Positions 1,739 through 26,675 of a stretch of 35,218 bases of DNA are shown piece after piece. The position numbers were made by a program, and so were the translations under genes. The DNA is from Candidatus Neoruminococcus faecicola. GTDB taxonomy: Bacteria > Bacillota > Clostridia > Oscillospirales > Ruminococcaceae. The number at the start of each line of letters is the position of its first letter. Positions within the stretch are counted from its first letter, which is position 1. The stretch is from assembly GCA_904398325.1 (NCBI GenBank), contig CAJFPC010000081.1:1-35218 (forward strand). Reading direction: 5' to 3'. The notes under the pieces were generated by a model. That model was not told the origin of the DNA. It saw only the letters and a list, made by a program, of their open reading frames with translations, and did no database searches.

Positions 1739-1751
1739 GTTCACATTCTCC

Positions 1752-3598: not shown

Positions 3599-3685
3599 CT
3601 TCCTACTCCCCTGCGCCGCAAAAGCGGCGGCCGCTGTTTTCGGCAAGCGGCCCGCCCAGCGTTTGGTTTGGCTAAAAAGGATGGT

Positions 3686-3913
3686 TTAAGCGAGGCTCTT
3701 TTCCACCAGAGCAGCGATATCGCCAACGGTAGAGAGCTTCTGATCCTCCATCTCGATGGTGATGCCGAACTCGTTCTCCAGCTCCATGACCAGGTCGACG
3801 GTATCCAGAGAATCCAGCTCCAGCTCCTCAAAGGTGGTGTCGGCGGTGATGGTGGAAGCATCGACTTCCTTGTACTCGGCCAGCACTTTGATGACTTTTT
3901 CCAAAACTTCCAT
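3686..3913 (-). CDS. acpP: Acyl carrier protein
   Basis: Carries growing acyl chains on a 4'-phosphopantetheine arm, which the AcpS encoded at 14917-15294 would attach. It is an acidic 75-residue protein with the invariant ELDSLDTVDL motif; Ser35 is the attachment site. A TAGGAGGA ribosome site precedes the ATG. The 63-nt gap to fabH holds a small hairpin (CCCGC/GCGGG, 3945-3959) without a U-run, so it is more likely a processing or stability element than a terminator. An 87-nt gap separates it from fabK. Confidence 0.97.
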   Translation of the reverse strand: MEVLEKVIKVLAEYKEVDASTITADTTFEELELDSLDTVDLVMELENEFGITIEMEDQKLSTVGDIAALVEKSLA

Positions 3914-3976
3914 GTGATAATCCTCCTAAATTCTTTTTATCTAACCCGCCCAAAGCGGGATAAACACAATGATATG

Positions 3977-4939: not shown

Positions 4940-4940
4940 C

Positions 4941-5402
4941 TTATTCCTCCAAACCCGCCAGCTTCTGGCGAAAAAAAGTATTCAATTTGCCGATCCCACT
5001 AACCAGGGTTGCCTTCTCCTGATCATTCAGCTGGGCGGCCACCGCCTTGGCCAGGCGAAGATGAAAGCGCTGATGGATGCGGTCTACCTTCTGGCCCTTG
5101 CGGGTCAGGCTGACCAGCACCTGCCGGCCGTCTGCCTTGTCGCGCTGCTTGACGGCATAGCCCTTGCGCACCAATTTATTGACCGCCACCGTCACGGAAG
5201 AGAGGGTCACGGCAAGCTCCTGCGCAATACCGCTGATGGTACATCCCTGAGCAGGGCCCCTGCCAATCGCCTCAATCAGATGGACCTCGCTGATGGAAAG
5301 GTTGAGCCCGCTTTTCTTCTCGATCAGGGATGCTTCCAGCCGGGAAATGGACCGGTAGGTTTCCACCAGGACATCATTCAGCTGCCTGCAAAAGTTTTCC
5401 AC
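4941..5402 (-). CDS. fabT: MarR-family fatty-acid synthesis repressor (FabT-like)
   Basis: A 153-residue winged-helix MarR protein heading the fab operon, in the position of FabT of streptococci, which represses fab genes and uses acyl-ACP as co-repressor (family knowledge). The helix-turn-helix covers about residues 50-95 (GCTISGIAQELAVTLSSVTVA), followed by the wing (RKGYAVKQRDKADGRQV). The start is GTG 5402, with GGAGG 6 nt upstream. It is transcribed from a near-consensus promoter whose -35 is overlapped by a palindrome, fitting autoregulation. FabT function is inferred from context; other MarR members look similar. Confidence 0.88.
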   Translation of the reverse strand: MENFCRQLNDVLVETYRSISRLEASLIEKKSGLNLSISEVHLIEAIGRGPAQGCTISGIAQELAVTLSSVTVAVNKLVRKGYAVKQRDKADGRQVLVSLTRKGQKVDRIHQRFHLRLAKAVAAQLNDQEKATLVSGIGKLNTFFRQKLAGLEE

Positions 5403-5437
5403 CCTGCGCCTCCAGAAAAAAATACTTAGACCATTTA

Positions 5438-5465
5438 ATTATAGACATATTTGGCCTGTTGTCAA
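5438..5465 (-). promoter_or_regulatory. Housekeeping promoter of the fab operon
   Basis: Reading the minus strand, TTGACA (5465-5460), a 16-nt spacer and TATAAT (5443-5438) match the sigma-A consensus at all 12 positions. It lies 36 nt upstream of the fabT GTG and should drive the whole fabT-to-fabF operon. Confidence 0.88.
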
Positions 5466-5472
5466 TTGATAA
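5459..5472. promoter_or_regulatory. Palindrome over the fab -35 box, candidate FabT operator
   Basis: TTGTCAATTGATAA is an inverted repeat with a single mismatched pair, centred on TCAATTGA, and overlaps the -35 hexamer. Its size and TTGA/TCAA half-sites resemble MarR/FabT operators. Binding is inferred. Confidence 0.55.
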
Positions 5473-5507
5473 TCTGTTAATTTTATCCTGCCTGGGCGCA
5501 GGGCAAA

Positions 5508-5536
5508 TTGCATTTTATCCGCTGCGGTGCTATACT
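5508..5536 (+). promoter_or_regulatory. Likely promoter of the UPF0340 gene
   Basis: TATACT (5531-5536) is a good -10, 17 nt after a weak -35, TTGCAT. It lies 36 nt upstream of the ATG and is divergent from the fab promoter. Confidence 0.5.
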
Positions 5537-5572
5537 TTCACCAGATACCATCAAAAAGGAGCAGACTGTGTT

Positions 5573-6127
5573 ATGGATTATCAAGAAATCACCCGGCAGG
5601 CGCGCCAGGCAGCCGAGGAGCTGTTAGCCGCCGCAAAGCTGCAGAAAGGGGACGTACTGGTAGTGGGCTGTTCTTCCAGTGAAGTGGGCGGGCAGCGCAT
5701 CGGCACCGGCTCCAGTATGGAAATCGCCGCCGCGCTTTACGCAGGCATCGCCCCGGTACTGGAAACGGCGGGCGTCTGCCTGGCCGCCCAATGCTGCGAG
5801 CATCTCAACCGCGCTATTATTCTGGAGGCTGAGACGGCGAAGCGACTCGGCTTAGAGCCGGTCAATGCGGTGCCGCAGCCCAAAGCCGGCGGCTCCTTTG
5901 CCACCACCGTATACCAGCACGCCCGGCGCCCCGTGGCGGTGGAGCATATCCGCGCCGACGCCGGCATGGATATCGGCGGCACGCTGATCGGTATGCATTT
6001 GAAGGAGGTAGCCGTGCCGGTGCGCCTCTCGCTGGACCATATCGGCAGTGCCATCCTGCTCTGTGCCAGGACCCGCCCCAAGTATATCGGGGGCGAGCGC
6101 GCTCATTATGACGAGAGGCTGAAATAA
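5573..6127 (+). CDS. UPF0340 (DUF436, YwlG-like) protein
   Basis: A 184-residue protein that I recognise as the UPF0340/DUF436 family, widespread in Firmicutes and without an established reaction. Visible traits are GDVLVVGCSSSEVGGQRIG near residues 25-44, a CCEHLNRAI segment, repeated small-residue turns and a conserved tail ARTRPKYIGGERA. It has no signal peptide or membrane segment, so it is cytosolic. The frame is open further upstream, but ATG 5573 follows AAGGAG by 11 nt and begins the conserved MDYQEITRQA. It is monocistronic, with its own promoter and terminator. The Cys/Ser-rich first motif could bind a ligand or metal, but that is a guess. Confidence 0.85.
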   Translation: MDYQEITRQARQAAEELLAAAKLQKGDVLVVGCSSSEVGGQRIGTGSSMEIAAALYAGIAPVLETAGVCLAAQCCEHLNRAIILEAETAKRLGLEPVNAVPQPKAGGSFATTVYQHARRPVAVEHIRADAGMDIGGTLIGMHLKEVAVPVRLSLDHIGSAILLCARTRPKYIGGERAHYDERLK

Positions 6128-6134
6128 GGTTTCC

Positions 6135-6166
6135 GGGAGGCGCTGCCGAAGGCGCCTCCCATTTTT
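6135..6166 (+). terminator. Intrinsic terminator after the UPF0340 gene
   Basis: A perfect 9-bp stem GGGAGGCGC/GCGCCTCCC (6135-6143 with 6152-6160) with an 8-nt loop, followed by ATTTTT. Confidence 0.88.
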
Positions 6167-6202
6167 CGCATTTTAGTCATAATTTCCCCTAAAACTTTTC
6201 AC

Positions 6203-6227
6203 AATATTTCGTTAACATGGAAATATT
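6203..6227. repeat. Inverted repeat upstream of the ABC exporter genes
   Basis: AATATTTC (6203-6210) and GAAATATT (6220-6227) are perfect 8-bp arms around a 9-nt centre containing GTTAACATG. TTAACA inside it, with TATGAT 15 nt on, could be a weak promoter. An operator is plausible; no regulator gene is adjacent. Confidence 0.4.
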
Positions 6228-6311
6228 CAGCTTATGATTAGAAAGGGCCTCGACGCTCTCAGCCAGGCAATTTTTTCTTGCGCTAAACAGCGTTTCGGGC
6301 CCGTTTCTTTT

Positions 6312-6358
6312 GCCTGCTGCCAAATAGTTACCTGTCAAATTGATGACAAAAAGCAGGC
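6312..6358. repeat. Nested inverted repeats in the ABC exporter leader
   Basis: Outer arms GCCTGCT (6312-6318) and AGCAGGC (6352-6358) enclose a second palindrome TGTCA-N6-TGACA (6333-6348). The inner element contains TGTCAAATTGAT, which resembles the fabT palindrome at 5459-5472. The rest of 6167-6401 shows no coding signal; CATAAT at 6371-6376 may be a -10. Confidence 0.45.
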
Positions 6359-6401
6359 TGCCCGAAGGGGCATAATATCTAGGAATTTGGGAGGAATGCT
6401 T

Positions 6402-8171
6402 ATGATTAAAACACTGCTGGGCCAAGTAAAACAGTATAAAGGCGCGTCTCTGCTGACCCCCCTGTTCACAGGGCTGGAAGTAGTGATGGAAGTGCTGATC
6501 CCCTTTGTCATTGCTGCCATCATCGACCAAGGGATTGAAGCCGGCGATATCAATAAAGTTTATCTTTACGGCGGTATGATGCTGGTGATGGCTTTTTTCA
6601 GCCTGGCCTTCGGCGCGCTGGCAGGCCGGTATGCGGCCAGAGCCTCTTCGGGCTTTGCCTGCAATCTGCGGGACAGCATGTTTGAAAAAGTACAGGAGTT
6701 CTCTTTCTCCAACATCGATAAGTTCAGCACTGCCGGCCTGGTCACCCGCATGACCACCGACGTGACCAATGTGCAGAACGCCTATCAAATGATCCTGCGC
6801 ATCGCGGTGCGCGCACCGCTGATGCTGATCTGCAGCATGATCATGTGCTTTTTCATCAATGTGAAGCTCAGCATGGTTTTTCTGGCAGCCATGTGCGTGC
6901 TGGGTGTGGCGCTGGCCCTGATTATTACCAAGACCATCCGCATTTTCAACGAGGTATTCCGCCGGTACGATGATCTGAACGCCAGCGTGCAGGAAAACGT
7001 CTCCGCCATTCGCGTGGTGAAAGCCTTTGTGCGGGAGGATTACGAGGACGAAAAATTCAAGCAGGCAGCCGGTCAGCTGTACCGCCTGTTTGTCAAAGCA
7101 GAGCGCCATCTGGTGCTCAACAGCCCGGTGATGATGCTGGTCATCTACGGCAGCATTCTGGGGCTCTCCTGGTTCGGTGCGCAGTATATCGTCATCGGCG
7201 ATCTGACCACCGGGGAGCTGACCAGCATGTTCAGTTATGTCATGGGCATCCTGATGAGTTTGATGATGCTCTCGATGATCTTTGTCATGATCACCATGAG
7301 CGCCGCCAGCGGCCGGCGTATCGTGGAGGTGCTGCAGGAACAGCCCGACCTGGTCAACCCGGAGCAGCCCGATCACAACATCCCCGACGGGCGCATCGAT
7401 TTTAACCACGTCAGCTTTTCCTACAAGCATGGCGGCACCGGCGAAAAGACCCTGCGGGATATCGACCTGCACATCGCCTCCGGCGAGACCATCGGCATCA
7501 TCGGCGGCACCGGCTCCGGCAAATCCAGCCTGGTCAACCTGATCAGCCGGCTGTACGACGTGGATGAAGGCAGCGTCTGCGTGGGCGGCAAGGATGTGCG
7601 CACCTATGATTTGGAAGAGCTGCGCAACCAGGTGGCTGTAGTGCTGCAGAAAAATGTGCTCTTCTCCGGCACGATTCTGGATAACCTGCGCTGGGGCAAG
7701 GAGGATGCCACCGAAGAGGAATGTGCCGAAGCCTGCCGCCAGGCCTGCGCCGACGAGTTTATCGAGCGCTTCCCCGACGGATACCGCACCTGGATTGAAC
7801 GGGGCGGCAACAACGTCTCCGGCGGGCAGAAGCAGCGGCTGTGCATCGCCCGTGCCCTGCTCAAAAAGCCCAAGGTGCTGATTCTGGATGACTCCACCAG
7901 CGCGGTGGATACCGCTACGGATGCCAAGATCCGGGAGGCCTTCGCCAAAAAAATCCCCGGCACCACCAAACTGATTATCTCGCAGCGAATTTCCAGCGTG
8001 CAGGATGCCGACCGCATCCTGGTGCTGGATAACGGCACCGTCAACGGGTTTGACACCCACGAAAACCTGCTGAACAATAACGAAATCTACCGGGAAATCT
8101 ATGAAGCCCAAACCAAGGGCGGCGGCGATTTTGACGAGCCTGCCCCCGATGGAAAGGATGGTGATCAGTAA
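6402..8171 (+). CDS. ABC exporter half-transporter, degenerate-site subunit
   Basis: A type I ABC exporter half (589 residues) with six N-terminal membrane helices (about 15-310) and a C-terminal ATPase. Walker A GGTGSGKSS lies near 368-376, with canonical signature VSGGQKQR. The Walker B end reads LILDDSTSAVD, so the catalytic Glu is Asp, and the H-loop reads IISQRISS, with Gln for the switch His. Such changes mark the degenerate-site subunit of heterodimeric exporters such as TM287/288, BmrCD and LmrCD. ATG 6402 has GGGAGG 7 nt upstream; the longer open frame has none. It ends in TAATG, overlapping the partner's start by one base. The substrate (drug, lipid or peptide) cannot be told. Confidence 0.93.
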   Translation: MIKTLLGQVKQYKGASLLTPLFTGLEVVMEVLIPFVIAAIIDQGIEAGDINKVYLYGGMMLVMAFFSLAFGALAGRYAARASSGFACNLRDSMFEKVQEFSFSNIDKFSTAGLVTRMTTDVTNVQNAYQMILRIAVRAPLMLICSMIMCFFINVKLSMVFLAAMCVLGVALALIITKTIRIFNEVFRRYDDLNASVQENVSAIRVVKAFVREDYEDEKFKQAAGQLYRLFVKAERHLVLNSPVMMLVIYGSILGLSWFGAQYIVIGDLTTGELTSMFSYVMGILMSLMMLSMIFVMITMSAASGRRIVEVLQEQPDLVNPEQPDHNIPDGRIDFNHVSFSYKHGGTGEKTLRDIDLHIASGETIGIIGGTGSGKSSLVNLISRLYDVDEGSVCVGGKDVRTYDLEELRNQVAVVLQKNVLFSGTILDNLRWGKEDATEEECAEACRQACADEFIERFPDGYRTWIERGGNNVSGGQKQRLCIARALLKKPKVLILDDSTSAVDTATDAKIREAFAKKIPGTTKLIISQRISSVQDADRILVLDNGTVNGFDTHENLLNNNEIYREIYEAQTKGGGDFDEPAPDGKDGDQ

Positions 8172-10072
8172 TGCCGATGCGCCGTGCCATGCCGGGCAAG
8201 CGGATGAGCTTCCGCCAGATGGCCCCGATTTTAAAGCGTGTGCTGGGCTACATGCTTCATAATTATAAATTCTCTTTCTTTATGGTGGTGGTGTGCATCC
8301 TGGGTTCTGCGCTGGCCACCCTGCGGGGCACCCTGTTTATGCAGAGCCTGATCGATGATTACATCCAGCCGCTGACCCAGAGCGCCAACCCGGATTTTTC
8401 CGCTCTGGCGGGCGCTCTGCTTTCCGTCGCAGCCACTTATGTGGTCGGAATCCTGTGCGCCTATGCCTATAACCGCATTATGGTCAATGTCAGCCAGGGC
8501 ACCATGCGCAATCTGCGCACCGAGCTGTTCGAGCATATGGAGTCCCTGCCCATCCGCTATTTTGACACCCATGCCCATGGGGATATCATGTCCGTCTATA
8601 CCAACGATGTGGATACCCTGCGCCAGCTGATGAGCCAGAGTATCCCGCAGGTCATCAACTCTTCGGTGACCATCCTCACCTCCTTTATCAGCATGCTGGT
8701 GCTGGATATCCCTCTGACGCTGGTCACCCTGGCCATGATCGGCCTGATGATGCTGGTCACCTCTAAAATCGCATCCAAATCCGCGGTGCATTTCTCCCGC
8801 CAGCAGAAGGATCTGGGCACCGTCAACGGCTATATTGAGGAAATGATGGACGGCCAGAAGGTGGTCAAGGTCTTCTGCCATGAAGAAGAAAGCCTGGAGC
8901 AGTTCCGCAGGCTCAATGACGAATTGCGGGACAGCGCCGACAAAGCCAACACCTTCGCCAACATCAGCATGCCGGTCAACGCCAACCTGGGCAACATCAG
9001 CTATGTGCTGTGCGCCGTGATCGGCGCCATCCTGGCGCTTAACGGCTATCTGGGGCTCACACTGGGCACCCTGGTCTCCTTCCTGACGCTCAACCGCAAT
9101 TCCACCCAGCCGGTCAGCCAGATCAGCCAGCAGCTCAACAGCATCGTCATGGCTATGGCCGGCGCCCAGCGAATTTTCAACCTGATGGATGAATCGCCGG
9201 AAGAGGACGACGGCTTTGTGACGCTGGTAAACGCCAAGGAGGACCGGGACGGCAACCTCACCGAGACCGAAGAACGCACCAACGTATGGGCCTGGAAAAA
9301 GCCGGAACAGGACGGCTCCTTCTCCTACACCAGGCTGGAAGGCGACGTGGTGTTCGACCATGTGGATTTCGGCTATGAGGAGGGCAAAACCGTCCTGCAC
9401 GACATCCAGCTGTTCGCCAAGCCCGGCCAGAAGATCGCCTTTGTCGGCTCCACCGGCGCGGGCAAAACCACCATCACCAACTTAATCAACCGCTTCTATG
9501 ATATCTCCGACGGCAAAATCCGCTACGACGGCATTGATATCAACAAGATCAAAAAAGACGACCTGCGCCGCAGCCTGGGCATCGTGCTGCAGGATACCCA
9601 CCTGTTTACCGGCACCGTTATGGAAAATATCCGCTACGGCCGCCTGGTCGCCACCGACGAAGAATGCATGGCCGCCGCCGAGCTGGCCAATGCGGATGGC
9701 TTTATCCGCCGCCTGCCGGAGGGCTATCAGACGGTGCTCACCGGCGACGGGGGCAACCTTTCCCAGGGGCAGCGCCAGCTGCTGGCTATCGCCCGGGCCG
9801 CTGTGGCCGACCCGCCGGTGCTGATTTTGGATGAGGCCACCTCCTCCATCGACACCCGCACCGAATCCCTGGTGCAGGAGGGCATGGACGCCCTGATGAC
9901 CGGCCGGACCACCTTTGTCATCGCCCACCGGCTCTCGACGGTGAAAAACTCCGACTGCATCATGGTGCTGGAGCAGGGCCGCATCATCGAGCGCGGCACC
10001 CACGACCAGCTGATTGCGGAAAAAGGCCGCTACTATCAGCTGTACACCGGCAACGCCATCGGCGGGGAATAA
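8171..10072 (+). CDS. ABC exporter half-transporter, catalytic-site subunit
   Basis: Partner of the preceding gene (633 residues) with six membrane helices (about 30-325) and an ATPase domain. Between them lies an inserted hydrophilic stretch near 345-395 (about 45 residues, rich in E/D/T/N). Walker A is GSTGAGKTT near 427-435, Walker B ILDEATSSID keeps the catalytic Glu, and the H-loop VIAHRLSTV keeps its His. Its signature is LSQGQRQ rather than LSGGQ, which fits a heterodimer in which this signature faces the partner's degenerate ATP site. Export through the plasma membrane is inferred. A strong terminator follows. Confidence 0.93.
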   Translation: MPMRRAMPGKRMSFRQMAPILKRVLGYMLHNYKFSFFMVVVCILGSALATLRGTLFMQSLIDDYIQPLTQSANPDFSALAGALLSVAATYVVGILCAYAYNRIMVNVSQGTMRNLRTELFEHMESLPIRYFDTHAHGDIMSVYTNDVDTLRQLMSQSIPQVINSSVTILTSFISMLVLDIPLTLVTLAMIGLMMLVTSKIASKSAVHFSRQQKDLGTVNGYIEEMMDGQKVVKVFCHEEESLEQFRRLNDELRDSADKANTFANISMPVNANLGNISYVLCAVIGAILALNGYLGLTLGTLVSFLTLNRNSTQPVSQISQQLNSIVMAMAGAQRIFNLMDESPEEDDGFVTLVNAKEDRDGNLTETEERTNVWAWKKPEQDGSFSYTRLEGDVVFDHVDFGYEEGKTVLHDIQLFAKPGQKIAFVGSTGAGKTTITNLINRFYDISDGKIRYDGIDINKIKKDDLRRSLGIVLQDTHLFTGTVMENIRYGRLVATDEECMAAAELANADGFIRRLPEGYQTVLTGDGGNLSQGQRQLLAIARAAVADPPVLILDEATSSIDTRTESLVQEGMDALMTGRTTFVIAHRLSTVKNSDCIMVLEQGRIIERGTHDQLIAEKGRYYQLYTGNAIGGE

Positions 10073-17297: not shown

Positions 17298-17330
17298 AAG
17301 CGGATGGAGTTTTCTCCATCCGCTTTTTTT
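17298..17330 (+). terminator. Terminator of the paaK-ACT operon
   Basis: A perfect 12-bp stem AAGCGGATGGAG/CTCCATCCGCTT with loop TTTT, then a run of T to 17330. Confidence 0.94.
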
Positions 17331-17603: not shown

Positions 17604-17849
17604 TCAAAGCTTGGAATAAAGCGTCTTGGTGCTCACCCCGGGCAGCATGCCCAGCTTGCCGGATAAGGCGCTGATGACCCCGTTGGGGGCGTCCACCACC
17701 ACGCTGATGATGGAGATGCCGCGCTCCCGGTAGGGCAGGCCCATCCGGCCGATGATATAGGGGCTGTACTCGTGCAGGACACGGTTGAGCTGCTCGACAG
17801 AATCCGGATTTTCCACGATGAGGCCGATCAAGGCAATGCGGGTGTCCAT
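17604..17849 (-). CDS. TM1266-type iron-only hydrogenase system regulator (ACT-like)
   Basis: An 81-residue protein that I recognise as the small putative regulator accompanying [FeFe]-hydrogenase maturation genes (TM1266 family): RIALIGLIVENPDSVEQLN, HEYSPYIIGRMGLPYRERG, SIISVVVDAPN, ALSGKLGMLPGV. It has a ferredoxin-like ACT/NikR-C fold without a DNA-binding part; its ligand and mechanism are unknown. ATG 17849 has GGAGG 10 nt upstream; an earlier ATG (17858) has it only 1 nt away. Last gene of the operon, directly behind hydF. Confidence 0.9.
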   Translation of the reverse strand: MDTRIALIGLIVENPDSVEQLNRVLHEYSPYIIGRMGLPYRERGISIISVVVDAPNGVISALSGKLGMLPGVSTKTLYSKL

Positions 17850-17854
17850 GGTAT

Positions 17855-19075
17855 TCATCCCTCCAATAAACCGGCCGCTTCCGGGAAGATGCCCAGGCTC
17901 CGCCGCAGGATGCCCTGGGTTTGGGCGATGACCATGCCGTAATTGGCGATGGGTACCCCCTGATCCGCCGCGCAGCGGATGCGGTATTTCATCTCCCGGT
18001 CGCCCAGCATGCAGCCGCCGCAGTGCACCACCATGCGGTAGGGAGAAAGATCCTCCGGAAATTCTCCGCCGCTGGTGTGCGCAAAGGCAAGCTCCTTGCC
18101 GGTATACTGCCGGATCCAGGCCGGCAGCTTCACCGTGCCGATATCCCCGCACTGGCGGTGATGGGTGCACCCCTCAGAAATCAAGACGCAGTCGCCGTCC
18201 CTCAGGCGGTCCAGGGCGCTCACCCCTCTCACCTGCTCCTCCAGATCCCCCTTATGGCGGGAAAACAGGATGGAAAAGGAAGTCAGCGGGATCTCTTGCG
18301 GCACTGTCTGCGCCACCTGGTGGAAGGCCTGGCTGTCGGTGATGACCAGCCGCGGCGGGGCCGGCATGGCTGCCAGAACCCCGGCCAGCTCTGTGTTGCG
18401 GCAGACCACCGGCACGGCGCCGCAGTCCAGCAGCTCCCGGATGGTCTGCTGCTGCGGCAGGATCAGCCTGCCCTTGGGGGCCGCCTTGTCGATGGGGATC
18501 ACCAGCACCACAAAGTCCATCGGCTGCACCTTATCCGCAATAATGGGGAACTCATGGGTCTCCTGCGGGGCCAGGGCCGCCAAACGTTCCTTAAGCCTGG
18601 AGATATTTTCCCCGGTTTTGGCGCTGACCCATAGGATATCCTCCCCCTCCGGCAGGCCGTCCGGCTCCCGGGAGGCGGCGGCGTCGCTTTTGTTGACGGC
18701 GATCAGATAGGGGATCTTTTTCTGCCGGATCTTCTCCAGCATGGCTCGGTCCTCCGGCAGAAAGCCGGCTTCGGCATCCACCACCAGAAGCGCCAGGTCG
18801 GATTTATTGAGCATCTGATAGCTGCGCCGCACCCGTTCCCGGCCCAGCGGGCCCTCGTCGTCAATACCCGGCGTGTCGATCAGCACCACCGGCCCCAGCG
18901 GCAGCAATTCCATTGCCTTCTGCACCGGGTCGGTGGTGGTGCCCTTCACCTCGGAAACGATGGAAAGGCTCTGCCCGGTCATGGCATTGATGACGCTGGA
19001 TTTACCCGCGTTGCGCCTCCCGAAAATACCGATATGCACCCGGTCGCCGGAGGGCGTCTGGTTTAGGCTGCTCAT
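17855..19075 (-). CDS. hydF: [FeFe]-hydrogenase H-cluster maturation GTPase HydF
   Basis: Scaffold that receives the 2Fe subcluster precursor and hands it to apo-hydrogenase. The 406 residues contain the GTPase domain (about 12-170) with GRRNAGKS (19-26), DTPGIDD and NKSD; a middle dimerisation part; and the C-terminal cluster-binding domain. The latter shows CTH, then 45 residues, then HCGGC, matching the family CxH...HCxxC pattern for its 4Fe-4S cluster. GGGGG lies 7 nt before the ATG, and the gene starts 12 nt after the ABC ATPase stop. All known key residues are present, so it looks functional. Confidence 0.95.
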   Translation of the reverse strand: MSSLNQTPSGDRVHIGIFGRRNAGKSSVINAMTGQSLSIVSEVKGTTTDPVQKAMELLPLGPVVLIDTPGIDDEGPLGRERVRRSYQMLNKSDLALLVVDAEAGFLPEDRAMLEKIRQKKIPYLIAVNKSDAAASREPDGLPEGEDILWVSAKTGENISRLKERLAALAPQETHEFPIIADKVQPMDFVVLVIPIDKAAPKGRLILPQQQTIRELLDCGAVPVVCRNTELAGVLAAMPAPPRLVITDSQAFHQVAQTVPQEIPLTSFSILFSRHKGDLEEQVRGVSALDRLRDGDCVLISEGCTHHRQCGDIGTVKLPAWIRQYTGKELAFAHTSGGEFPEDLSPYRMVVHCGGCMLGDREMKYRIRCAADQGVPIANYGMVIAQTQGILRRSLGIFPEAAGLLEG

Positions 19076-19087
19076 GCAAATTCCCCC

Positions 19088-19888
19088 TTATTGGTTCTGC
19101 GCGCTGAAGGGCAGCGTCAGCACGCAGGTATAATCCTTTTCCGGCAGATGGATGGTCTGGATGCGCACCGGCACCCCGAAGGCCTGCTGCAGCGTATCCT
19201 CCCGGATGACCTGGGCCGCCCCGCCGAAAAGGGCGCTGCCATCCGGCATCAGGAGCAGGGCCTTGTCCGCCAGCTCCACCGCATGCTCCGGGTAGTGCGT
19301 ATTGAGAATGGCCGCCAGGCCGCGCTCCCGGCACAGCCACGCGATGGTATCCATCACGATGCGCTGGTTTTTAAAATCCAGGTTGGATTCCGGCTCATCC
19401 AGCACCAGCAGCTCCGGATCGGTGACCAGGGCCCGGGCGATCAGCGCCATCTGATATTCCCCGCCGCTGATGCGGCTGCAGAGCTTATCCTTCAGGTGGG
19501 AAATGCCCACCAGCTCCAGGCACTGCTCCACCTTGGCCCAGTCTCTGGGCCCGGGCTGGCTGAATTCCCCCAGATGGGCGCTGCGGCCCAGCACCACCAT
19601 CTCCCCCACCGTATAGACGAAGGAAGGCAGCTTGGCCTGGGGCACATAGCCCACCTGCCGCCAGAATTCCTTGGGGCGCAGGGAGTGTACCTCCCGGCCG
19701 TCCAGATAGGCGGCCCCGGCACTCCAGCGGTACAGGCCCAGCATGCACTTCATCAGCGTGGTTTTGCCCGCGCCGTTGGCCCCCAAAACGGTGAGGATCT
19801 CCCGGTCCGTAAGCTGCAGGGAAATTTCCCGCAGCACCTGCTGGCCGTGCCGGTAAGAAAAGCTGCCGTTTTTCACTTCAAATTTCAT
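19088..19888 (-). CDS. ABC transporter ATPase, FecE/BtuD type
   Basis: 266-residue ATPase that powers uptake with the FecCD-like permease encoded just upstream. Walker A GANGAGKTT (36-44), Q-loop YVPQ, signature ISGGE (140-144), Walker B LLVLDEP (160-166) and the switch His in NTHYPEH are all present. Class II importers of this type carry iron chelates, heme, cobalamin or molybdate. The start at 19888 overlaps the permease stop in ATGA. The C-terminal 30 residues (QTIHLPEKDYTCVLTLPF) extend beyond the core fold. Confidence 0.93.
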   Translation of the reverse strand: MKFEVKNGSFSYRHGQQVLREISLQLTDREILTVLGANGAGKTTLMKCMLGLYRWSAGAAYLDGREVHSLRPKEFWRQVGYVPQAKLPSFVYTVGEMVVLGRSAHLGEFSQPGPRDWAKVEQCLELVGISHLKDKLCSRISGGEYQMALIARALVTDPELLVLDEPESNLDFKNQRIVMDTIAWLCRERGLAAILNTHYPEHAVELADKALLLMPDGSALFGGAAQVIREDTLQQAFGVPVRIQTIHLPEKDYTCVLTLPFSAQNQ

Positions 19889-20889
19889 AGGCGGAACCCT
19901 CCCGTCCGGCGCAGCAGCAGGATGAAGAACGGCGCCCCGATGATAGCCGTCAGGATGGAGACCGGGATTTCTGCGGCGCTGACACAGCGGGCAGCCGTAT
20001 CGATCACCAGAAGGAACACCGCCCCGAACCCGATGCTGGCCGGCACCACCCGCTGGTTGTTGCTGCCGAAAATCATCCTGGCGATATGCGGCACCAGCAG
20101 GCCCACCCAGCCGATCAGTCCGCACATGGAGACCGCCGCCGCCGTAATCATAGCCGCAGCCAGAATCACAGCCGTGCGGATGCGCACCACCGGCACGCCG
20201 AGGGACTGGGCCTCCTCCTGCGGGAGGGAAAGGGCGTTGAGCTTCCAGCGCAGCAGGAAGATCAGCAGAATCCCGGTCAGCAAAAAGGGCGCGCCGGTAT
20301 AAAGGGTCTCGCGGGTCACGCTGGAAAGGCTGCCCATCAGCCAGAAGGTGATGGCCGGCAGCACATCCTGCGGGTCGGCGGAATATTTCACCAGAGAGAC
20401 CAGCGCCGAAAACAGCGAGCTGATGACAATGCCGGATAAAATCAGCATCACCGGCGACGCGCCTCCCCGGCTGTGCCCCACCAGATACACCAGGCCTACG
20501 GCTGCCAGGCCGAACACCAGCGCCGAGGTCTGGATAGCAAGCGACGGCAGCCCGAACAGGATGCCCAGCACCGCCCCGAAGGAGGCCCCGGTGGCCACAC
20601 CCAGGGTATCCGGCGCCGCCAGCGGATTGGAAAACACCGCCTGGAAGGCCGCCCCCGCCGTGGCCAGGCCCGCGCCGGCCAACAGGGAAATCAGAATGCG
20701 CGGCAGCCGGATGTTGAACACCACATTGCCCGCCATGCCGTGATCCGCGCCCGGGTGCAGCAGCGTCTGCATCACCTGGGAAAAGGAAAGCTGATACCGC
20801 CCCAGCATCAGCGCCAGCACCGAAAGGATCAGAATGGCGGCTGCGGTGCCGATGGCCCAGACGGCGCCTTTTGTGCGAAGCTTGTTCAT
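19885..20889 (-). CDS. FecCD-family iron-chelate/tetrapyrrole ABC permease
   Basis: 334-residue integral membrane protein with about ten hydrophobic helices. FecCD/BtuC signatures include GRYQLSFSQV, RLPRILISLLAGAGLATAGAAFQAVFSNPLAAPDTLGV, GASFGAVLGI, and CGLIGWVGLLVPHIAR near the ATPase-contact loop. It dimerises to form the import channel for a metal chelate, heme, corrinoid or similar. It starts 7 nt after the binding-protein stop with a weak ribosome site, suggesting coupling. Confidence 0.93.
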   Translation of the reverse strand: MNKLRTKGAVWAIGTAAAILILSVLALMLGRYQLSFSQVMQTLLHPGADHGMAGNVVFNIRLPRILISLLAGAGLATAGAAFQAVFSNPLAAPDTLGVATGASFGAVLGILFGLPSLAIQTSALVFGLAAVGLVYLVGHSRGGASPVMLILSGIVISSLFSALVSLVKYSADPQDVLPAITFWLMGSLSSVTRETLYTGAPFLLTGILLIFLLRWKLNALSLPQEEAQSLGVPVVRIRTAVILAAAMITAAAVSMCGLIGWVGLLVPHIARMIFGSNNQRVVPASIGFGAVFLLVIDTAARCVSAAEIPVSILTAIIGAPFFILLLRRTGGFRL

Positions 20890-20896
20890 CTTGCCG

Positions 20897-22066
20897 TCAG
20901 TTCACATAGCCGTCGGCCGCGTCGGAAGAAGGGTGATACATCTTCTCGATCTGCTCGTCCGTCAGCTGGATGCCGTAAAGCTGCTGGTAATAATCCCGCA
21001 CCTCCGCGTTGATGTCGATATCCTCAAACAGCTCGGGATAGACCTTCTGCGCCATCCAAAGGAGCGTCACCGGCGTGTCGGTGCTGGGGGTGTAGCTGCG
21101 GTAGGTGCCCAGCGGCAGCTTGTAGACCTGCCGGGTGCTTACCGCCTCCACCTGGCTCCAGTCGTCGCCGCCGATGGCATTGGTATAAAGATCCTCCGGC
21201 TGGGCGGGGGTGAAGTTGGTGATGAAGATCACGTCCGGGTTCCACTGATAGACCTGCTCCATGTTGATGACGGCGTTGGAATTTTCCGCCTGGACCTCTT
21301 CCGCCACGTTGCGGCCGCCCACCGCTTCGGCCCAGAACTGGCCAAAGAAGTTCTTGCCGGAGGTGATCATCTGCTGGTCGCTGTACTGGAACAGGAAGAG
21401 GATATCCTTTTTCTCCTCCTCCGGGATGCCGGCGACGCGCTCCTGCACCATGCTGTAGATTTCCTCGCTGTATTGGCTGACCAGATCCGACGTTTCGGCG
21501 TTTTCGGGGAAGATCTGGGCCAGCAGCGCGATCCACTGGTCATAGGTCTCGATGATATCATAATCCCACTTGGTCGGAGAAACGCCCACCGCCGGGATGC
21601 CGGCGTTTTCCAGGGCGCTTTGCAGCTGGGTATTGCCCGCAGTGTAGAAGACCACGTCCGGCTCCAGGCTCAACAGCTGCTCGATATTCAGGTCGCTGCC
21701 GGTCATGAAGCTGGTATCCGCCTCTAAAATCTCGGGGAAAATCTCCCCCAGCAGGCCGGACTGAGCCGCGCTCATGCTGGTGGGATGGATGCCCACCAGC
21801 TTATCCGCCGAACCCAGGAACACGGTAATCACCGACGGCAGCGGGTAAATATCCGTCACCACGATCCGGTCGATCTGCCGGGGCAGGGTGACCTGGTTAT
21901 CCCCGTGGTCGGTGATGGTGATGGTGTCGCTTTCCTGCTCCGCCTGGGAGGAGACGGAAGCCTCCGGCTGGGACGCCGAAGAGGATTCCTCCCCACCGGA
22001 ACAGGCGGAAAGGGGCACCATGGCTGCGCACAGGAGCAGTGAAAGAATTCTTTTTAGCTTCTTCAT
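20897..22066 (-). CDS. FecB-like substrate-binding lipoprotein of the ABC importer
   Basis: 389 residues. The signal peptide ends in lipobox LSAC (lipidated Cys22), then comes a Ser/Glu linker (about 23-47) and a two-lobed class III binding domain. Visible are TITDHGDNQVTLPRQIDRIVV, LGSADKLVGIH, NIEQLLSLEPDVVF, WNPDVIFI and VYKLPLGTYR. It delivers ligand to the permease encoded next. The family binds siderophores, heme, corrinoids or oxyanions; the ligand cannot be read from sequence. A Trp/Tyr-rich patch around residues 165-180 (SPTKWDYDIIETYDQW) may line the pocket. It starts 4 nt after the second component-1 gene, inside the operon. Confidence 0.9.
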   Translation of the reverse strand: MKKLKRILSLLLCAAMVPLSACSGGEESSSASQPEASVSSQAEQESDTITITDHGDNQVTLPRQIDRIVVTDIYPLPSVITVFLGSADKLVGIHPTSMSAAQSGLLGEIFPEILEADTSFMTGSDLNIEQLLSLEPDVVFYTAGNTQLQSALENAGIPAVGVSPTKWDYDIIETYDQWIALLAQIFPENAETSDLVSQYSEEIYSMVQERVAGIPEEEKKDILFLFQYSDQQMITSGKNFFGQFWAEAVGGRNVAEEVQAENSNAVINMEQVYQWNPDVIFITNFTPAQPEDLYTNAIGGDDWSQVEAVSTRQVYKLPLGTYRSYTPSTDTPVTLLWMAQKVYPELFEDIDINAEVRDYYQQLYGIQLTDEQIEKMYHPSSDAADGYVN

Positions 22067-22070
22067 GTCT

Positions 22071-23258
22071 TTATAACCTCGTTTCTAACCAATTGTTGGC
22101 ACTCTGGCCCACCAGGACCGGGATCTCCCTGCGGTAGATCCGGCCGGTGCAGCCTTCGTGCGGCCATCGAATAAAAGCGGCTTTCCGGTTCCCGCGGAGC
22201 ACCCGCCGGTAGATAGGGTCGCCGATCACCAGCCGGGCCCTTGCCGCCGCCTCGAACAGGTCGTCCTCCTGGGCCTGGAACAGATCCCCCGGGCATGCAA
22301 GCTGCTCCGGGCATTCCAGCGGGGTGACGATCCGCACGCCGGTCAGGCCGAAATCCTCCTGCAGCACGCAGCGCAGCGACGCGGCGCTCACCGGCTCCCC
22401 GATGAGAAGGATCTCCCCGCTCTGCTGGCCGCCTCTCTCCGGCTGCAGCGGGTTGCGGTTTTGGCCATCCCGGGCGGCGCTTGCGAGCTGGCGGGCCAAT
22501 CGCCGGGAAAACTCCCTGCCAAAGGGCGCCCCGGTCACATAGGGGGTGCCGTAGAGCTTCTGCAGCGCATGCGCCAGCGGCAGCCCGCAGGAAGAGACGA
22601 CCAGATTGACATCTGCCCGGCCCGCCTGCATCAGTTCTTCCCACGGGCTCCCCATGGCCCAGCAGCAGCCGAAGGCGAAGCCCTCCTGCTCCAGCCAGGC
22701 GCCCATCGCCTCCACGCTGCCGCCTACGGAAAAATCCAACGGCGTGGCCCCCAGCAGGTTGACCACCGGACGAGCGCCTCCCTCCGGCCGGATGCCGTCA
22801 GGGCAAAAGCGCCCGGCAACCGCCGCCAGCGCCCGCCCCGCCCCCAGCAGGTAGGAATGCATGCCGTTGGTAGCAAAGCCAAAGGCCGGGATGCCGGTGC
22901 GCCGTTCGATCAGCCGCGCCACCCCGGAAAAATCCGTCCCCATCATCATGGGGATCGGCGTCCCCGCCACAGCAATAAAGCGGGGATTCAGCTGGGCGGC
23001 GGTTTCGCAGATGTCGGCGATGAGCTTTTCCTCATCGCCCATCACCGCCTCCAGCTCCGACAGTGCGGAGATATACACCATGCTGGGGGTATCGTACCAC
23101 CGGGGCTCGTCGTGGGTATTATAGGTGGAATTGCAGCCGGAGGCGTCGTGCATGACCGTCATGCCGCCCATCTCATACAAAGCTGAGCACACCCCCGAAA
23201 CATCCGCCGCATAGGTGGAAATCACGCTTTCCGTCTGTCTCAACCGCAGCACCCCCAT
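22071..23258 (-). CDS. Nitrogenase component 1-like subunit (second)
   Basis: 395-residue member of the oxidoreductase/nitrogenase component 1 fold. Cys24 (SGVCSALYEM) and Cys42 (HDASGCNSTYN) align with the first two P-cluster-type ligands of NifD/K. The usual third Cys is missing: the equivalent segment reads AGTPIPMMMGTDF, where TCIPxLIG-D is expected. Later parts show GNAAG-less turns such as NLLGATPLDFSVG and a final WPHEGCTGR. It likely pairs with the preceding subunit and takes electrons from the NifH-like ATPase. It is not a dinitrogenase. ATG 23258 was chosen by overlap (19 nt) with the upstream gene; GTG/TTG codons just downstream are alternatives. Confidence 0.82.
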   Translation of the reverse strand: MGVLRLRQTESVISTYAADVSGVCSALYEMGGMTVMHDASGCNSTYNTHDEPRWYDTPSMVYISALSELEAVMGDEEKLIADICETAAQLNPRFIAVAGTPIPMMMGTDFSGVARLIERRTGIPAFGFATNGMHSYLLGAGRALAAVAGRFCPDGIRPEGGARPVVNLLGATPLDFSVGGSVEAMGAWLEQEGFAFGCCWAMGSPWEELMQAGRADVNLVVSSCGLPLAHALQKLYGTPYVTGAPFGREFSRRLARQLASAARDGQNRNPLQPERGGQQSGEILLIGEPVSAASLRCVLQEDFGLTGVRIVTPLECPEQLACPGDLFQAQEDDLFEAAARARLVIGDPIYRRVLRGNRKAAFIRWPHEGCTGRIYRREIPVLVGQSANNWLETRL

Positions 23259-24562
23259 CCTTTGACCTGAATGATGGATTTGGTATCCTTCTCTTCCCGG
23301 GCGGCCTCGGCGATCAGCCCGCACAGCCGGCAAATGCCCCGGTAGCCGTAAAGTCCGCCGCCTTCCAGCAGATTGACGAAATGGGGCGTCCCGAGAAAAT
23401 AGGCCGCCTTCTGACCGATGGCCAGCACCTGCGGACGGGGCGGCCCGCCCGCCGCCAACAGCCCCATCTTGGGATGGGTGGTGGGGCGGATGGAAAGCCA
23501 GCCGTAATGCTCTTTGAGCAGCTCATAATCCGGCCGGTCTTCGGCGGTGTAGCTGTCGGTATAGACGCTCTCCACCGCAAAGCCGTGTTCCAACAGCAAC
23601 CGGGCCAGCCCCAGGGGGCGGGTGGTCGCCGTATAATCGATGGCCACCGGCATCCCATTCAGAATCCTGGCGGTTTCCGCCAGCGCCTCCTCCGCCCGGC
23701 GGCGCAGCGCGGCAAAATCCGGCAGCGGCAGATCCAGCGCCTGGGCAAGGCGCCTTTCGGCAGCCTCAATCTCCTCATAATCATAGCTCAGCGGCAGGTA
23801 AAAATGCTCCTGGCCCAGCCGCTCCTTGAGCGTCTCCCCCGCAATCACCGCGGCGGGGTTCCAGCTGAGGTTGGCCGCACTTTCGCCCATGCGCTGATAT
23901 TCCTCATAGGTTCTGCACCAGGAGATATCCCGCACCCGCCAGCCGCCCTGGCAGAGCATCTCATACAGCTCGCTGCCCCGGTCAATGGGGGCGATGTTGC
24001 CGATGATGTTGATGCTCCGGGGGTCCTTCTCCCGAGGCTTGAGCAGGCTGTAAAGCTGCTGGCGCATCTTGGCATCGGGAGAAATTTTGGTTTTGCGCAG
24101 AATGGGCGTCATATAGCAGTCGGTGATATCCACATCGGGGAAGCGCTTCCGCAGCTTGCGGTAAACATAATCCAAATCGCAGCCCACAAAATGATGGATG
24201 CAGCTGGTGAAAATCAGCAGCGCCCGCGGCCGGTGCTCCAGCTTTTGCAGGATGTCGGCGGTGCCTTCCAGGATCAGCTGCTCCAGGTCGCCGTCCCTCA
24301 CGTTGTGCTCCTGCAGGGTGATGGTGGAAAACCGGTCCTCCGCGCCCATTTCGGCGGCGGTCAGCACCACGCCCCGCAGGCAGCCCTGGGCGCAGACGAA
24401 GATCTGATGGCTCTCGGGGATCAGCATCCCCACATGGACGATGTTCCACGGCCCGCGGGCGGGGGCGGCATACTCCAGCCCGGCGGCAAAGGGCGCCGGG
24501 AAGGGCGTCTCGGCAATGGGCCGGCAGGTGCCGGCATCCGTCAGCTTGTGCAGGTCAATCAA
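23240..24562 (-). CDS. Nitrogenase component 1-like subunit (first)
   Basis: 440 residues with three Cys sites spaced as in NifD/BchN-type proteins: Cys13, Cys57/Cys61 ([10 protein letters not shown]), and Cys121/Cys128 ([12 protein letters not shown]). Together with Cys24 and Cys42 of its partner they could hold a 4Fe-4S or P-like cluster. No FeMo-cofactor Cys/His pair is evident, and the protein lacks NifD's extra length. The C-terminus is unusual, ending KGWGCCG. TTG 24562 has GGGGG 8 nt upstream and overlaps the NifH-like gene by 8 nt. The substrate may be a tetrapyrrole, a metal chelate or another imported molecule, as the downstream importer suggests (inference). Confidence 0.83.
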
Positions 24563-25325
24563 GGGCTTTTCCCCCTTCCGCGGCGGCCAGCACCTGGTCC
24601 GCCAGGCGCTCATACTCCCGGGCCATTTCACTTTCCGGAAAGAGCTCGATCACCGTCTTCTGCTGCTCCGCCGCCTGCTGGACCAGCTCGCTGAAGGGCA
24701 GCCGCCCCACAATGCGGGAATGGACGTCCTGCGCCAGCTCCTCCACTTTTTCCTCCTCCCGGACGACGCCCCGGCGGTTGAGGATGATCCCCCCCAGGCG
24801 GGCGTAGCCCCGGTCGGCGAAATGCTCCACCGCCGCCGCGATGTTGGCCGCCGCATGGATGGCCATGTTCTCCCCCGAGGTGAGCAGAAAGACCTGCTCG
24901 GCATAACCCTCCCGGATGGGCATGGCAAAGCCGCCGCACACCACGTCGCCCAGCACGTCATACAGCACAATATCCGGCTGGTAATGGTCAAAGGCGTGCT
25001 TCTCGGTCAAGGCCTCCAGGGCGGCGATGATGCCCCTGCCGGCGCAGCCGGTGCCGGGGGTGGGGCCGCCGGCCTCCACGCAGAGCACCCCGGCATACCC
25101 CTCGGTGACCATCTCCTCCAGAGTGACCTGCTTATTTTTCTGCCGGAGCAAATCCAGCACGGTGGCAGCCGGCCGGCCGCCGTGCAGGCAGATGGTGGAA
25201 TCCGCCTTGGGGTCGCAGCCGATCTGCATCACCTTCATACCCCGTCGGGCAAACACCGCCGACAGGTTGGAGACAGTCGTCGATTTGCCGATGCCGCCTT
25301 TCCCATAAACCGCCATTTTAATCAT
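24555..25325 (-). CDS. NifH-like ATP-dependent reductase (Fe protein family)
   Basis: 256 residues. P-loop [10 protein letters not shown] (8-17), [10 protein letters not shown], the two 4Fe-4S ligands Cys94 ([11 protein letters not shown]) and Cys130 ([15 protein letters not shown]), and Arg97 next to the first Cys are all present. It should form a homodimer bridged by one cluster and pass electrons to the component-1-like proteins on ATP hydrolysis, like NifH, BchL or CfbC. It is shorter than NifH (about 275-295). ATG 25325 has GGAGG 9 nt upstream and overlaps the hydE end by 8 nt. The sequence alone does not assign nitrogenase, protochlorophyllide or F430 chemistry. Confidence 0.92.
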
Positions 25326-26376
25326 GAATTTTTTCCTCCTGATAATCCCCGCGGCCCACCACGATTTCATAGCCGATGGCCCGGACCGCCTGCACCACCC
25401 GGTCGCGGCTGCTGACTTCGTCGTCGCCGACGCCGATTTTATTGTCGTATAACAGATAGCTGCCCCGCACCTGGGGCGGCGAAATATTGGGCATAATCAC
25501 ATTGGCCCCGGCCAGAATCCCCTGCTCCCGGCCGCCCGGCGTCAGCGTGCCCAGCGCGGTGGTGGCCGGCAGCAGCACGGATGGGTTCATCAGCCGGGTG
25601 AGACTGAGCATCATCAGCGTATCCCGCAGGGTGCCCGGCTTTTCCCGGCAAAAGGGGGTGTCCTTATGGGGCAGAAAGGGCCCGATGCCCACCATCTGCG
25701 GCCGGAAGGCGCGGGTGAAGAGCAGATCCTCCGCCAGGTGCTCCGCCGTCTGATAGGGGGAGCCTACCATGCAGCCGCAGCCGGTCTGATAGCCGATCCC
25801 GCGCAGATCCTTTAAGCACTGCATCCGGCGCTGCCAGCTCATTTCCGGCGGGTGGAGCCTGGCATAATGCTCCGGGTTGGCCGTCTCATGGCGCAGCAGG
25901 TAGCGGTCGGCCCCGGCGTCGTAATACCGCTGGTAGCTGCCGCGCTCCTTCTCCCCCAGCGAAAGGGTGATGGCGCAGTCGGGAAAACGCTCCCGGATGC
26001 GCCGCACCAGGGAAACGATCCTGCCGTCGTCAAACCAGGGGTCCTCCCCGCCCTGCAGCACAAAGGTCCGATAGCCCAGCTGGTAGCCGCGGTCACAGCA
26101 GCCGAGGATTTCCTCCTCCGAAAGGCGGTAGCGCCCCGCCTGCCGGTTGCCGCGCCGGATGCCGCAGTAGTAGCAGTTGTTTTTGCAGTAGCTGGAAAGC
26201 TCCACAATCCCCCGGAAATAGACCCGCCGGCCGAAGATCCGGTCGGTCATGCTGCGCGCCCGGTCCGCGGCGTAGAGGCGTTCCTCCTCTGTATAGCCGG
26301 CCAGCAGGGCCGTCAGCTCCTCCTTGGGGAGCAGCTCCCCTGCCGCCAGCCTATCAATGCGTTCCCGGTTGTTCAA
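25318..26376 (-). CDS. hydE: [FeFe]-hydrogenase maturase HydE (radical SAM)
   Basis: 352-residue radical SAM enzyme with the cluster motif CKNNCYYC (Cys64, Cys68, Cys71). It resembles Thermotoga HydE along its whole length: [66 protein letters not shown] and [11 protein letters not shown]. HydE acts on the HydG-derived Fe(CO)2CN-cysteine synthon during H-cluster assembly. An ATG at 26382 has GGAGG only 1 nt away, whereas TTG 26376 has it at 7 nt, so TTG is preferred. PylB and BioB are related but lack these blocks. First gene of the operon, directly behind an attenuator-like leader. Confidence 0.95.
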
Positions 26377-26640
26377 TCTCATTCCTCCAAAGAAAAAGCC
26401 CCCTTGCCAAAAGCCGGCAAAGGGGCAGGAAATCAGTGCTGATATCGGTCAAAACAGGCAAAACTCCCCCTCTGGCGGCAGACCGGCTGCCGGGCGCGGA
26501 TAGGGGCCCTGTTTTACTTCCTGCGCCTTACGGTTCTGAGCGGATCATCGCCTGTTCAGTGCGCGAAGCCTATGAAATTTTTCCCGCGGCGAATGGTCAG
26601 GGTGCCCTTCCCACGAGCCGCAAAATTGATTTTTGTTGAC
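26377..26640 (-). promoter_or_regulatory. Structured leader with terminator/antiterminator, possible riboswitch
   Basis: The presumed transcript start near 26640 leaves about 260 nt before hydE with no gene. Minus-strand pairing is nested. AAGGCGCAGGAA (26529-26518) pairs with TTCCTGCCCCTT (26431-26420) with one mismatch. Inside, AAAACAGG pairs with CCTGTTTT (26515-26508 with 26458-26451), CCCCT with AGGGG, and CGGCAG with CTGCCG. The outer stem's 3' arm overlaps the 5' arm of a terminator hairpin, so the two exclude each other. The 5' part (26530-26640) has additional GCGGC/GCCGC pairing. I do not recognise a known riboswitch class; a cobalamin B12 box is absent. Confidence 0.65.
26393..26426 (-). 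terminator. Attenuator terminator just upstream of hydE
   Basis: A hairpin of GGC(A)AAGGGG with CCCCTTGCC (26398-26408 with 26416-26426; about 9 pairs, one bulge), followed on the minus strand by CTTTTTCTTT. It ends 3-5 nt before the hydE ribosome site, so it can control both transcription and translation. Confidence 0.78.
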
Positions 26641-26646
26641 TGATTT

Positions 26647-26675
26647 AGTATACCACAGCAGGGCGGCCCTTGCAA
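26647..26675 (-). promoter_or_regulatory. Promoter of the hydE operon
   Basis: Minus strand TTGCAA (-35, 26675-26670), a 17-nt spacer and TATACT (-10, 26652-26647). No other good promoter is seen inside the nine-gene run. Confidence 0.7.

Follow-up and report, generated by a model that had tools for sequence, protein, structure and literature searches.

Nitrogenase-like and importer genes at the usual place of hydG among hydrogenase maturation genes in Clostridia

The nine-gene operon and its nitrogenase-like proteins

The DNA considered here, called the window, is a 35,218-nucleotide stretch of Candidatus Neoruminococcus faecicola (contig CAJFPC010000081.1, assembly GCA_904398325.1). Its minus strand carries a nine-gene operon in which the [FeFe]-hydrogenase maturation genes hydE and hydF are separated by genes for a NifH-like reductase, two component-1-like subunits (NfD and NfE) and a FecBCD-type importer. 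In this operon and its relatives, nitrogenase-like and importer genes occupy the usual place of hydG among the H-cluster maturation genes. A sequence-only reading of the same DNA had named nine genes, all of which lie on the minus strand in the order that it gave, each with family support. From promoter to terminator the features are:

26647..26675, minus strand: sigma-70-type promoter-like site, TTGCAA-17-TATACT with TG before the second hexamer (consensus match only)
26510..26569, minus strand: conserved leader RNA with short helices around a GA/GA internal loop, a candidate riboswitch or attenuator sensor (comparative alignment)
26398..26426, minus strand: leader intrinsic terminator, ~15 nt before hydE (terminator scan; the hairpin forms in the leader fold)
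25318..26382, minus strand: hydE, radical SAM maturase with CxxxCxxC intact (TIGR03956, 537 bits; cut-off 254.6)
24555..25325, minus strand: nifH-like gene, ATP-dependent reductase with a P-loop and invariant Cys103 and Cys139 in alignment numbering (PF00142, 308 bits)
23240..24562, minus strand: nfD, component-1-like subunit (PF00148; start TTG 24562 assumed; fold model)
22071..23258, minus strand: nfE, component-1-like subunit (PF00148)
20897..22066, minus strand: fecB-like substrate-binding lipoprotein (PF01497, Peripla_BP_2; model with a predicted local distance difference test score, pLDDT, of 89)
19885..20889, minus strand: fecC/D-like permease (PF01032, FecCD, 298 bits)
19088..19888, minus strand: fecE-like ATPase (PF00005, ABC_tran)
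17855..19075, minus strand: hydF, GTPase scaffold with dimer and tetramer domains (TIGR03918, 555 bits; cut-off 325.6; PF18128, PF18133)
17604..17858, minus strand: TM1266-type small regulator (TIGR03959, 115 bits; cut-off 60.8)
17298..17325, minus strand: intrinsic terminator after the TM1266 gene (terminator scan)

The two component-1 proteins score 88 and 109 bits against PF00148, and the importer trio (Peripla_BP_2, FecCD and ABC ATPase) is complete. With the chosen starts, the junctions from hydE to the TM1266 gene measure -8, -8 (nfD start TTG 24562), -19, +4, +7, -4, +12 and -4 nt, which matches the earlier range between an overlap of 19 nt and a gap of 12 nt. HydE and HydF, already recognised as known maturases, both exceed curated cut-offs, HydE with its CxxxCxxC kept. 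The idea of a single promoter and a single terminator agrees with the sites at 26675-26647 and 17325-17298; it overlooked the leader terminator (26426-26398), and a weak promoter-like site (9/12) lies within fecB (21018-20990). The gene set is not unique to one genome, as the nine-gene order recurs in five other loci (L027, L041, L043, L049 and L052).

None of the nitrogenase-like proteins belongs to a named family by score. The NifH-like protein reaches none of the NCBIfam equivalog cut-offs shown for Nif, Bch and Cfb (NifH, 326 against 394), and this protein, NfD and NfE are all below cut-off for the DPOR, COR and CfbCD equivalogs. NifE is the best-scoring model for NfE, at 62 against a cut-off of 505, and NfD has no Nif match at E<=0.001. 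Across 85 rows from the type-A and type-B loci defined below, Cys52, Cys56 and Cys116 of NfD (alignment numbering; 57, 61 and 121 from the assumed start) and Cys40 of NfE (alignment numbering; C42 of the full protein) are invariant, and a C-terminal Cys region of NfD is conserved. The NifH-like protein retains its P-loop and both cysteines, Cys103 and Cys139, that serve NifH as cluster ligands. In NifE, a cysteine holds the cofactor precursor as ligand of the iron-molybdenum cofactor (FeMo-co) or L-cluster. This residue is not conserved in a profile alignment with one NifE, being W in the window NfD, S in NfE and N in the second NfD (NfD2) of locus L028; the NifE/NifN references come from one Cupriavidus plasmid.

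The NfD model (pLDDT 91.5) has the component-1 fold, with NifEN, AnfK, VnfK and the methylthio-alkane reductase Mar (9fmg/9d9u) nearest, at 12-19% identity. Because the cysteines of NifH, NfD and NfE are conserved, the NifE cofactor site holds no Cys and the fold is that of component 1, the set is likely, as judged from sequence and model, to be a reductase that is driven by ATP and has an iron-sulfur cluster at an interface, without a FeMo-co-type cofactor held in the usual way. The NfD model has the fold in common with NifEN/NifDK, but the set differs from them in this low identity and in the absence of the NifE cofactor Cys from the window proteins; Mar was compared by fold and by the NifE-type Cys position rather than by a Mar model. 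DPOR (BchLNB), COR (BchXYZ) and CfbCD each combine a NifH-like reductase with a heterodimer lacking a nitrogenase-type cofactor. The window set has the same layout, but its partners are HydE and HydF, not tetrapyrrole genes. Group IV-A of the nitrogenase superfamily is placed near mlp gene clusters, beside methyltransferases and sulfur genes (parts of PMC10418091). According to the same parts it likewise comprises uncharacterised or Mar-like Nif-like sets of anaerobic bacteria, whereas the window set is tied to hydrogenase maturases. In L028 (9709-11805, minus strand), a NifH-like protein and NfD share one frame of 698 aa, possibly a natural fusion.

Distribution of the gene set, HydG and Hyp genes

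In the window genome (94 contigs totalling 1.6 Mb; completeness 92%), a profile search finds no HydG over the cut-off of 312 bits (best match 2.2e-50), and the HydA client is represented by five domain matches over cut-off, four of them at E<=1e-15. Among 291 sampled genomes of the class, HydG exceeds the cut-off in 183, and HydE is present at E<=1e-60 in 195 (194 over cut-off), 19 of which lack HydG; the HydE-positive, HydG-negative genomes were picked by eye from match tables. NfD relatives occur in 15 of the 291. In ten of these 15 nfD adjoins hydE, hydF, TM1266 and/or hyp genes, and HydG is below cut-off in all ten, as judged from E-values (6.6e-66 or weaker). These linked carriers account for 10/19 HydG-minus and 0/176 HydG-plus genomes with HydE. 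At a completeness of at least 90% and a contamination of at most 5%, the carriers are 10/14 HydG-minus against 0/150 HydG-plus genomes (Fisher test, 3e-13, which ignores kinship and excludes the type-C loci described below).

The ten linked carriers span five families, and four of these (f1, f5, f44 and f46) also contain HydG-positive genomes without NfD. The genus g63 includes four carriers without HydG as well as two genomes (G085 and G241) in which HydG is present and NfD finds no match at E<=1e-10, although G241 has two other PF00148 proteins. The same combination, HydG without an NfD match at that threshold, is found in the family of the window (G246, G265) and in its order (G035, G092, G165, G186, G207, G282). 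In g63 the operons themselves differ: the HydG-positive loci L122 and L123 read tm1266-hydE-hydG-hydF, whereas the HydG-negative L032-L035 read tm1266-nfD-nfE-hydF, with hypFDE and nifH2-nfD2-nfE2 upstream. Four well-assembled HydE-positive, HydG-negative genomes have no linked NfD (G065, G215, G160 and G283), and in two of them, G065 and G215, HydF likewise has no match at E<=1e-50.

The set extends beyond this sample. A scan of species genomes with the NfE alignment, of which the best 80 loci were kept, placed among them Clostridium ljungdahlii, C. carboxidivorans, C. drakei, C. luticellarii and C. citroniae, as well as Intestinibacter bartlettii, Loigolactobacillus rennini, Mesosutterella, Treponema and a metagenome-assembled genome (MAG) of Atopobiaceae. 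A profile scan found no hydG in the locus stretches of these 80. Their genomes were tested for HydG in 40 cases, selected and not random, and five scored over cut-off, with HydG fragments in one further genome. Together with the ten linked class genomes, less one duplicate, they make 49 carriers; L075 (G304) is the same contig as L028 (G210) and is counted once in the 49 genomes and twice in the 90 loci below. HydE is found in 49/49 carriers, HydF in 49/49 at E<=1e-50 (one in two pieces; 48 over cut-off) and HydA in 48/49, the sole exception being a 1.2 Mb MAG; HydG exceeds cut-off in five, plus one fragmented. A plasmid search for NfD returned Treponema saccharophilum only. The L. rennini locus L145 (5380-10811) reads nifH-nfD-nfE-fecB-hydF, followed by a regulator that we take, by eye, to be ModE-like and a second FecBCD-type transporter; HydA and HydE lie together on another contig.

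Two architectures dominate the 90 loci (the window, L027-L035 and L041-L120, the last being the best 80 from the scan) at FecBCD and Hyp thresholds set by the analyst. FecBCD genes characterise type A (58/90), and Hyp genes and/or a second Nif-like set type B (25/90); no locus has both and seven have neither. HypF, HypC, HypD and HypE exceed curated cut-offs in the type-B locus L031, and the HypF-HypC-HypD-HypE genes lie between or beside two Nif-like sets there (1574-9321) and in L032-L035, L057 and L064. HypD is over cut-off in 18/18 type-B genomes and absent from 26/29 FecBCD-type carriers; it is also present in Treponema G311, whose locus lacks fec genes, and absent from G327, whose short locus shows neither architecture. 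Type B has HypF, HypC, HypD and HypE in common with [NiFe] maturation by HypCDEF but differs in being tied to Nif-like genes and mostly without a [NiFe] large subunit (no match in 13/18 genomes) or HypB (below cut-off in 11/18). A sister group of these modules, type C, has Nif-like and fec genes with no hyd genes nearby (L036-L040, L148).

In a tree of 74 NfD+NfE rows, from which 13 rows (near-copies, unclear type) and the second Nif-like rows had been dropped by hand, type C stands apart with a support of 100 in the Shimodaira-Hasegawa-like approximate likelihood ratio test (SH-aLRT). The distribution of types A and B requires at least four changes, two of them forced by supported branches, with three ungrouped rows uncounted and L040 a very long branch. 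The importers also vary: in 32 loci (two at contig ends) the FecE frame continues into a TM1266-like domain. Among MolABC/FecBCD importers, the window FecB model is near MolA (3psa) and CeuE-like proteins; the difference lies in the ATPase, often fused to the TM1266-like domain in the relatives, whereas the FecE of the window is unfused.

The leader element

A 60-nt element precedes hydE or nifH in 17 of the 95 sources searched, the window included (elsewhere L027, L042-L049, L051, L052, L053, L054, L056, L063 and L087); a covariance model built from 15 of them found two more. For the nine proposed pairs, pairing holds in 97% of cells, compared with 21-44% in slid controls. Four pairs changed on both sides, a number reached in 27/500 shuffles, and there are seven further pair types, reached in 499/500; these two of the five measures do not stand out from the shuffles. 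The sequences tested are also those from which the structure was derived. What supports a candidate leader RNA with covarying helices is its conservation, the slid controls and the three remaining measures. A terminator-like hairpin, judged by eye, lies between the element and the first gene in most loci that bear it. The whole leader fold of the window does not exceed shuffled sequences in stability (z -0.44).

Rfam 15 returned nothing over the gathering score for the window or the leader, and on seven relatives only T-box and tRNA, both elsewhere than the leader. The covariance model has no match at E<0.05 in 49 other loci, HydG-positive operons among them, and none was found by the pattern scan of viral contigs or by a strict pattern over the relatives' loci. 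Elsewhere in the window (6234-10072, plus strand) lies an ordinary ABC transporter pair with fused membrane and ATPase domains.

Possible replacement of the HydG step

The CO and CN ligands of the H-cluster are attributed to HydG. The HydG product, [Fe(II)(cys)(CN)(CO)2]-, is reduced by HydE and then thought to dimerise (parts of PMC12752695), and HypCDEF makes Fe(CN)2CO (parts of PMC9431212). As far as the consulted parts of the latter acetogen survey go, HydE and HydF occur in all eight species and five, including C. ljungdahlii and C. carboxidivorans, have no typical HydG. The survey gives no straightforward explanation in those parts; it proposes an atypical HydG or free diatomics and allows for mechanisms not yet identified. 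The same parts report HypCDEF without HypA/B in five species, with one [NiFe]-hydrogenase assigned per species, and an [FeFe]-hydrogenase purified from C. autoethanogenum, where HydG was assigned by motif. In the main text of the survey 'nitrogenase' appears a single time, as part of a reference title (PMC9431212), and no link of nitrogenase-like genes to H-cluster maturation was found in the open-licence literature searched.

Four points go beyond the sequence-only reading: the missing HydG, the leader RNA, the fusion of FecE to TM1266, and the importer-Hyp exchange, in which FecBCD stands against HypFCDE with a second Nif-like set. Compared with HydEFG maturation, the window has HydE, HydF and TM1266 over cut-offs, HydA present and an operon context like that of L122 and L123; it differs in that HydG is absent and NifH/NfD/NfE with FecBCD (in type B, HypFCDE with a second Nif-like set) stand instead. 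The Nif-like system likely replaces HydG, as gene content suggests. The HydE alignment has 91 positions conserved at 97% or more across 76 rows, most from carriers (only six rows come from HydG-positive genomes, several are duplicates, and Clostridium acetogen HydEs are left out), and in the simplest reading the new system would end at the usual HydE substrate. Since HypCDEF makes Fe(CN)2CO, one kind of iron unit could plausibly be supplied either by the importer or by the Hyp set, which is the central inference here. The whole explanation, in which a Nif-like system replaces the HydG step and the raw unit is imported or made by Hyp proteins, has a probability of roughly 0.68.

From the gene set, the missing HydG, the retained HydA, HydE and HydF, the importer-Hyp exchange and the fusions, we infer a reaction, an imported substrate and a sensing role for TM1266. 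NifH and NfD/NfE would take over the HydG step and supply an Fe(CO)2(CN) unit for HydE, after which HydE and HydF would complete the [2Fe] cofactor as normal. NifH would spend ATP to drive electrons into the iron-sulfur cluster of NfD/NfE, which would reduce or remodel the unit. In type A, the raw unit would enter through FecBCD and would most likely be an iron-cyanide/carbonyl species or its ligand source; that the import is of an iron-CN/CO unit as such is a tentative proposal, somewhat short of even odds. In type B, the unit would be made intracellularly by HypF-C-D-E and the second Nif-like set. Whether as a free protein or as a FecE fusion, TM1266 would be a likely sensor that stops import when the pathway is full. 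MetNI-type ABC importers, whose C-terminal domains are ACT-like, are inhibited by the substrate that they carry, and by analogy a substrate brake on the importer is a fair guess for the TM1266-like domain. The presence of HydE and HydF in all carriers and of HydA in all but one, mostly without HydG, fits one of two possibilities raised by the sequence-only reading, that an imported metal complex is reductively processed for the H-cluster, and disfavours the other, that the Nif-like enzyme owes a cofactor to HydE/HydF chemistry.

Several observations weigh against this explanation. HydG is present in C. drakei, two Intestinibacter bartlettii records, Clostridium sp. 1001270J and the MAG of L041 (5/49), so the Nif-like system is not always a replacement of HydG; the L041 genome (G322) has other HydG fragments as well, may be mixed and is counted as HydG-positive. 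Type C occurs in the HydG-positive genomes G072, G148, G179 and G269, and in G141, where HydG and HydE were both not found; counting type C, 4/176 HydE-positive, HydG-positive genomes carry an NfD relative, and the module also works outside the hyd context. Twenty of the 90 loci have no hydE, hydF or TM1266 inside the locus stretch. G160 and G283 have hydE and hydF with no HydG or Nif-like protein over cut-off, G283 with HypD, and in G160 (L135, 10047-12544) tm1266-hydE-hydF are contiguous with no gene in between. The Hyp proteins of type B may serve other clients there, as a [NiFe] large subunit matches in 5/18 genomes (four Clostridium species; weak and partial in G321) and HypB, the nickel-insertion protein, exceeds cut-off in 7/18; HypD is found in 3/29 FecBCD-type genomes. 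Lastly, the FecB model is nearest to 4ovk and to MolA, structures described as molybdate, nickel or siderophore binders.

CO2 reduction to CO is a side activity of nitrogenases and their Fe proteins, and the best-placed alternative, itself unlikely, is that the Nif-like enzyme makes only CO, from CO2. CN would come from HypF/E in type B or an imported donor in type A, and HydE/HydF or NfD/NfE would assemble Fe(CO)2CN. The first Nif-like set is common to A and B, and the parts exchanged are possibly those related to CN. An extra CO would indeed be needed, as the HydG product has two CO and one CN per iron (parts of PMC12752695) against one CO and two CN in the Hyp product (parts of PMC9431212). 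However, with the NifE cofactor Cys replaced by W, S or N, a nitrogenase-type CO2-reducing cofactor is unlikely. Acetogens, in addition, already have CO available from CODH.

Less probable again is an iron, cobalt or sulfur acquisition unit (chelate import and reductive release) whose only tie to hydrogenase maturation is co-regulation, CO and CN being obtained elsewhere. The type-C modules in HydG-positive genomes, the five carriers that keep HydG and the resemblance of FecB to metal and siderophore binders speak for it, as does the ~1% activation that HydE and HydF can reach without HydG from stray diatomics (parts of PMC9431212). It does not predict the absence of HydG in carriers of f1, f5, f44 and f46, however, nor the exchange with Hyp genes, nor the FecE-TM1266 fusion. 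Recruitment of HydE/HydF into making a novel cofactor of the Nif-like enzyme would suit the tight operon linkage and the conserved C-terminal Cys region of NfD, but is very improbable given that only a 1.2 Mb MAG lacks HydA and that the HydE core is shared with HydG-positive genomes (the 6/76 rows). An assembly artefact or a HydG too diverged to score, as the many MAGs and the atypical HydG candidates proposed for acetogens (PMC9431212, which refers to its Table S8) might suggest, is equally improbable, since HydG is below cut-off in the one-contig G121, the complete C. carboxidivorans P7 chromosome and the isolates C. ljungdahlii, C. luticellarii and L. rennini, and over it in 183 of the 291 class genomes.

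The nine-gene operon is confirmed as described, and replacement of HydG by the Nif-like system is likely. Because the Nif-like set stands at the usual place of hydG and most examined carriers have no hydG, the data suggest a second, HydG-less route to a CO/CN-bearing iron cofactor. In a more speculative and rather improbable extension, bacteria would trade or salvage a ready-made iron-carbonyl/cyanide unit through FecBCD, which would then be the first known case of import of an organometallic hydrogenase-cofactor precursor; the Nif-like enzyme would reduce it for HydE, the RNA leader and TM1266 would sense it, and importer-less cells would produce it with HypFCDE diverted from the assembly of [NiFe]-hydrogenases. 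If HydG is replaced as proposed, a group of unassigned nitrogenase-like enzymes would gain a function. Replacement would also explain a published puzzle, namely why no HydG could be found in acetogens that have HydE, HydF and predicted [FeFe]-hydrogenases (parts of PMC9431212). A widespread HydG-less route would revise [FeFe]-hydrogenase maturation in gut Clostridia and industrial acetogens.

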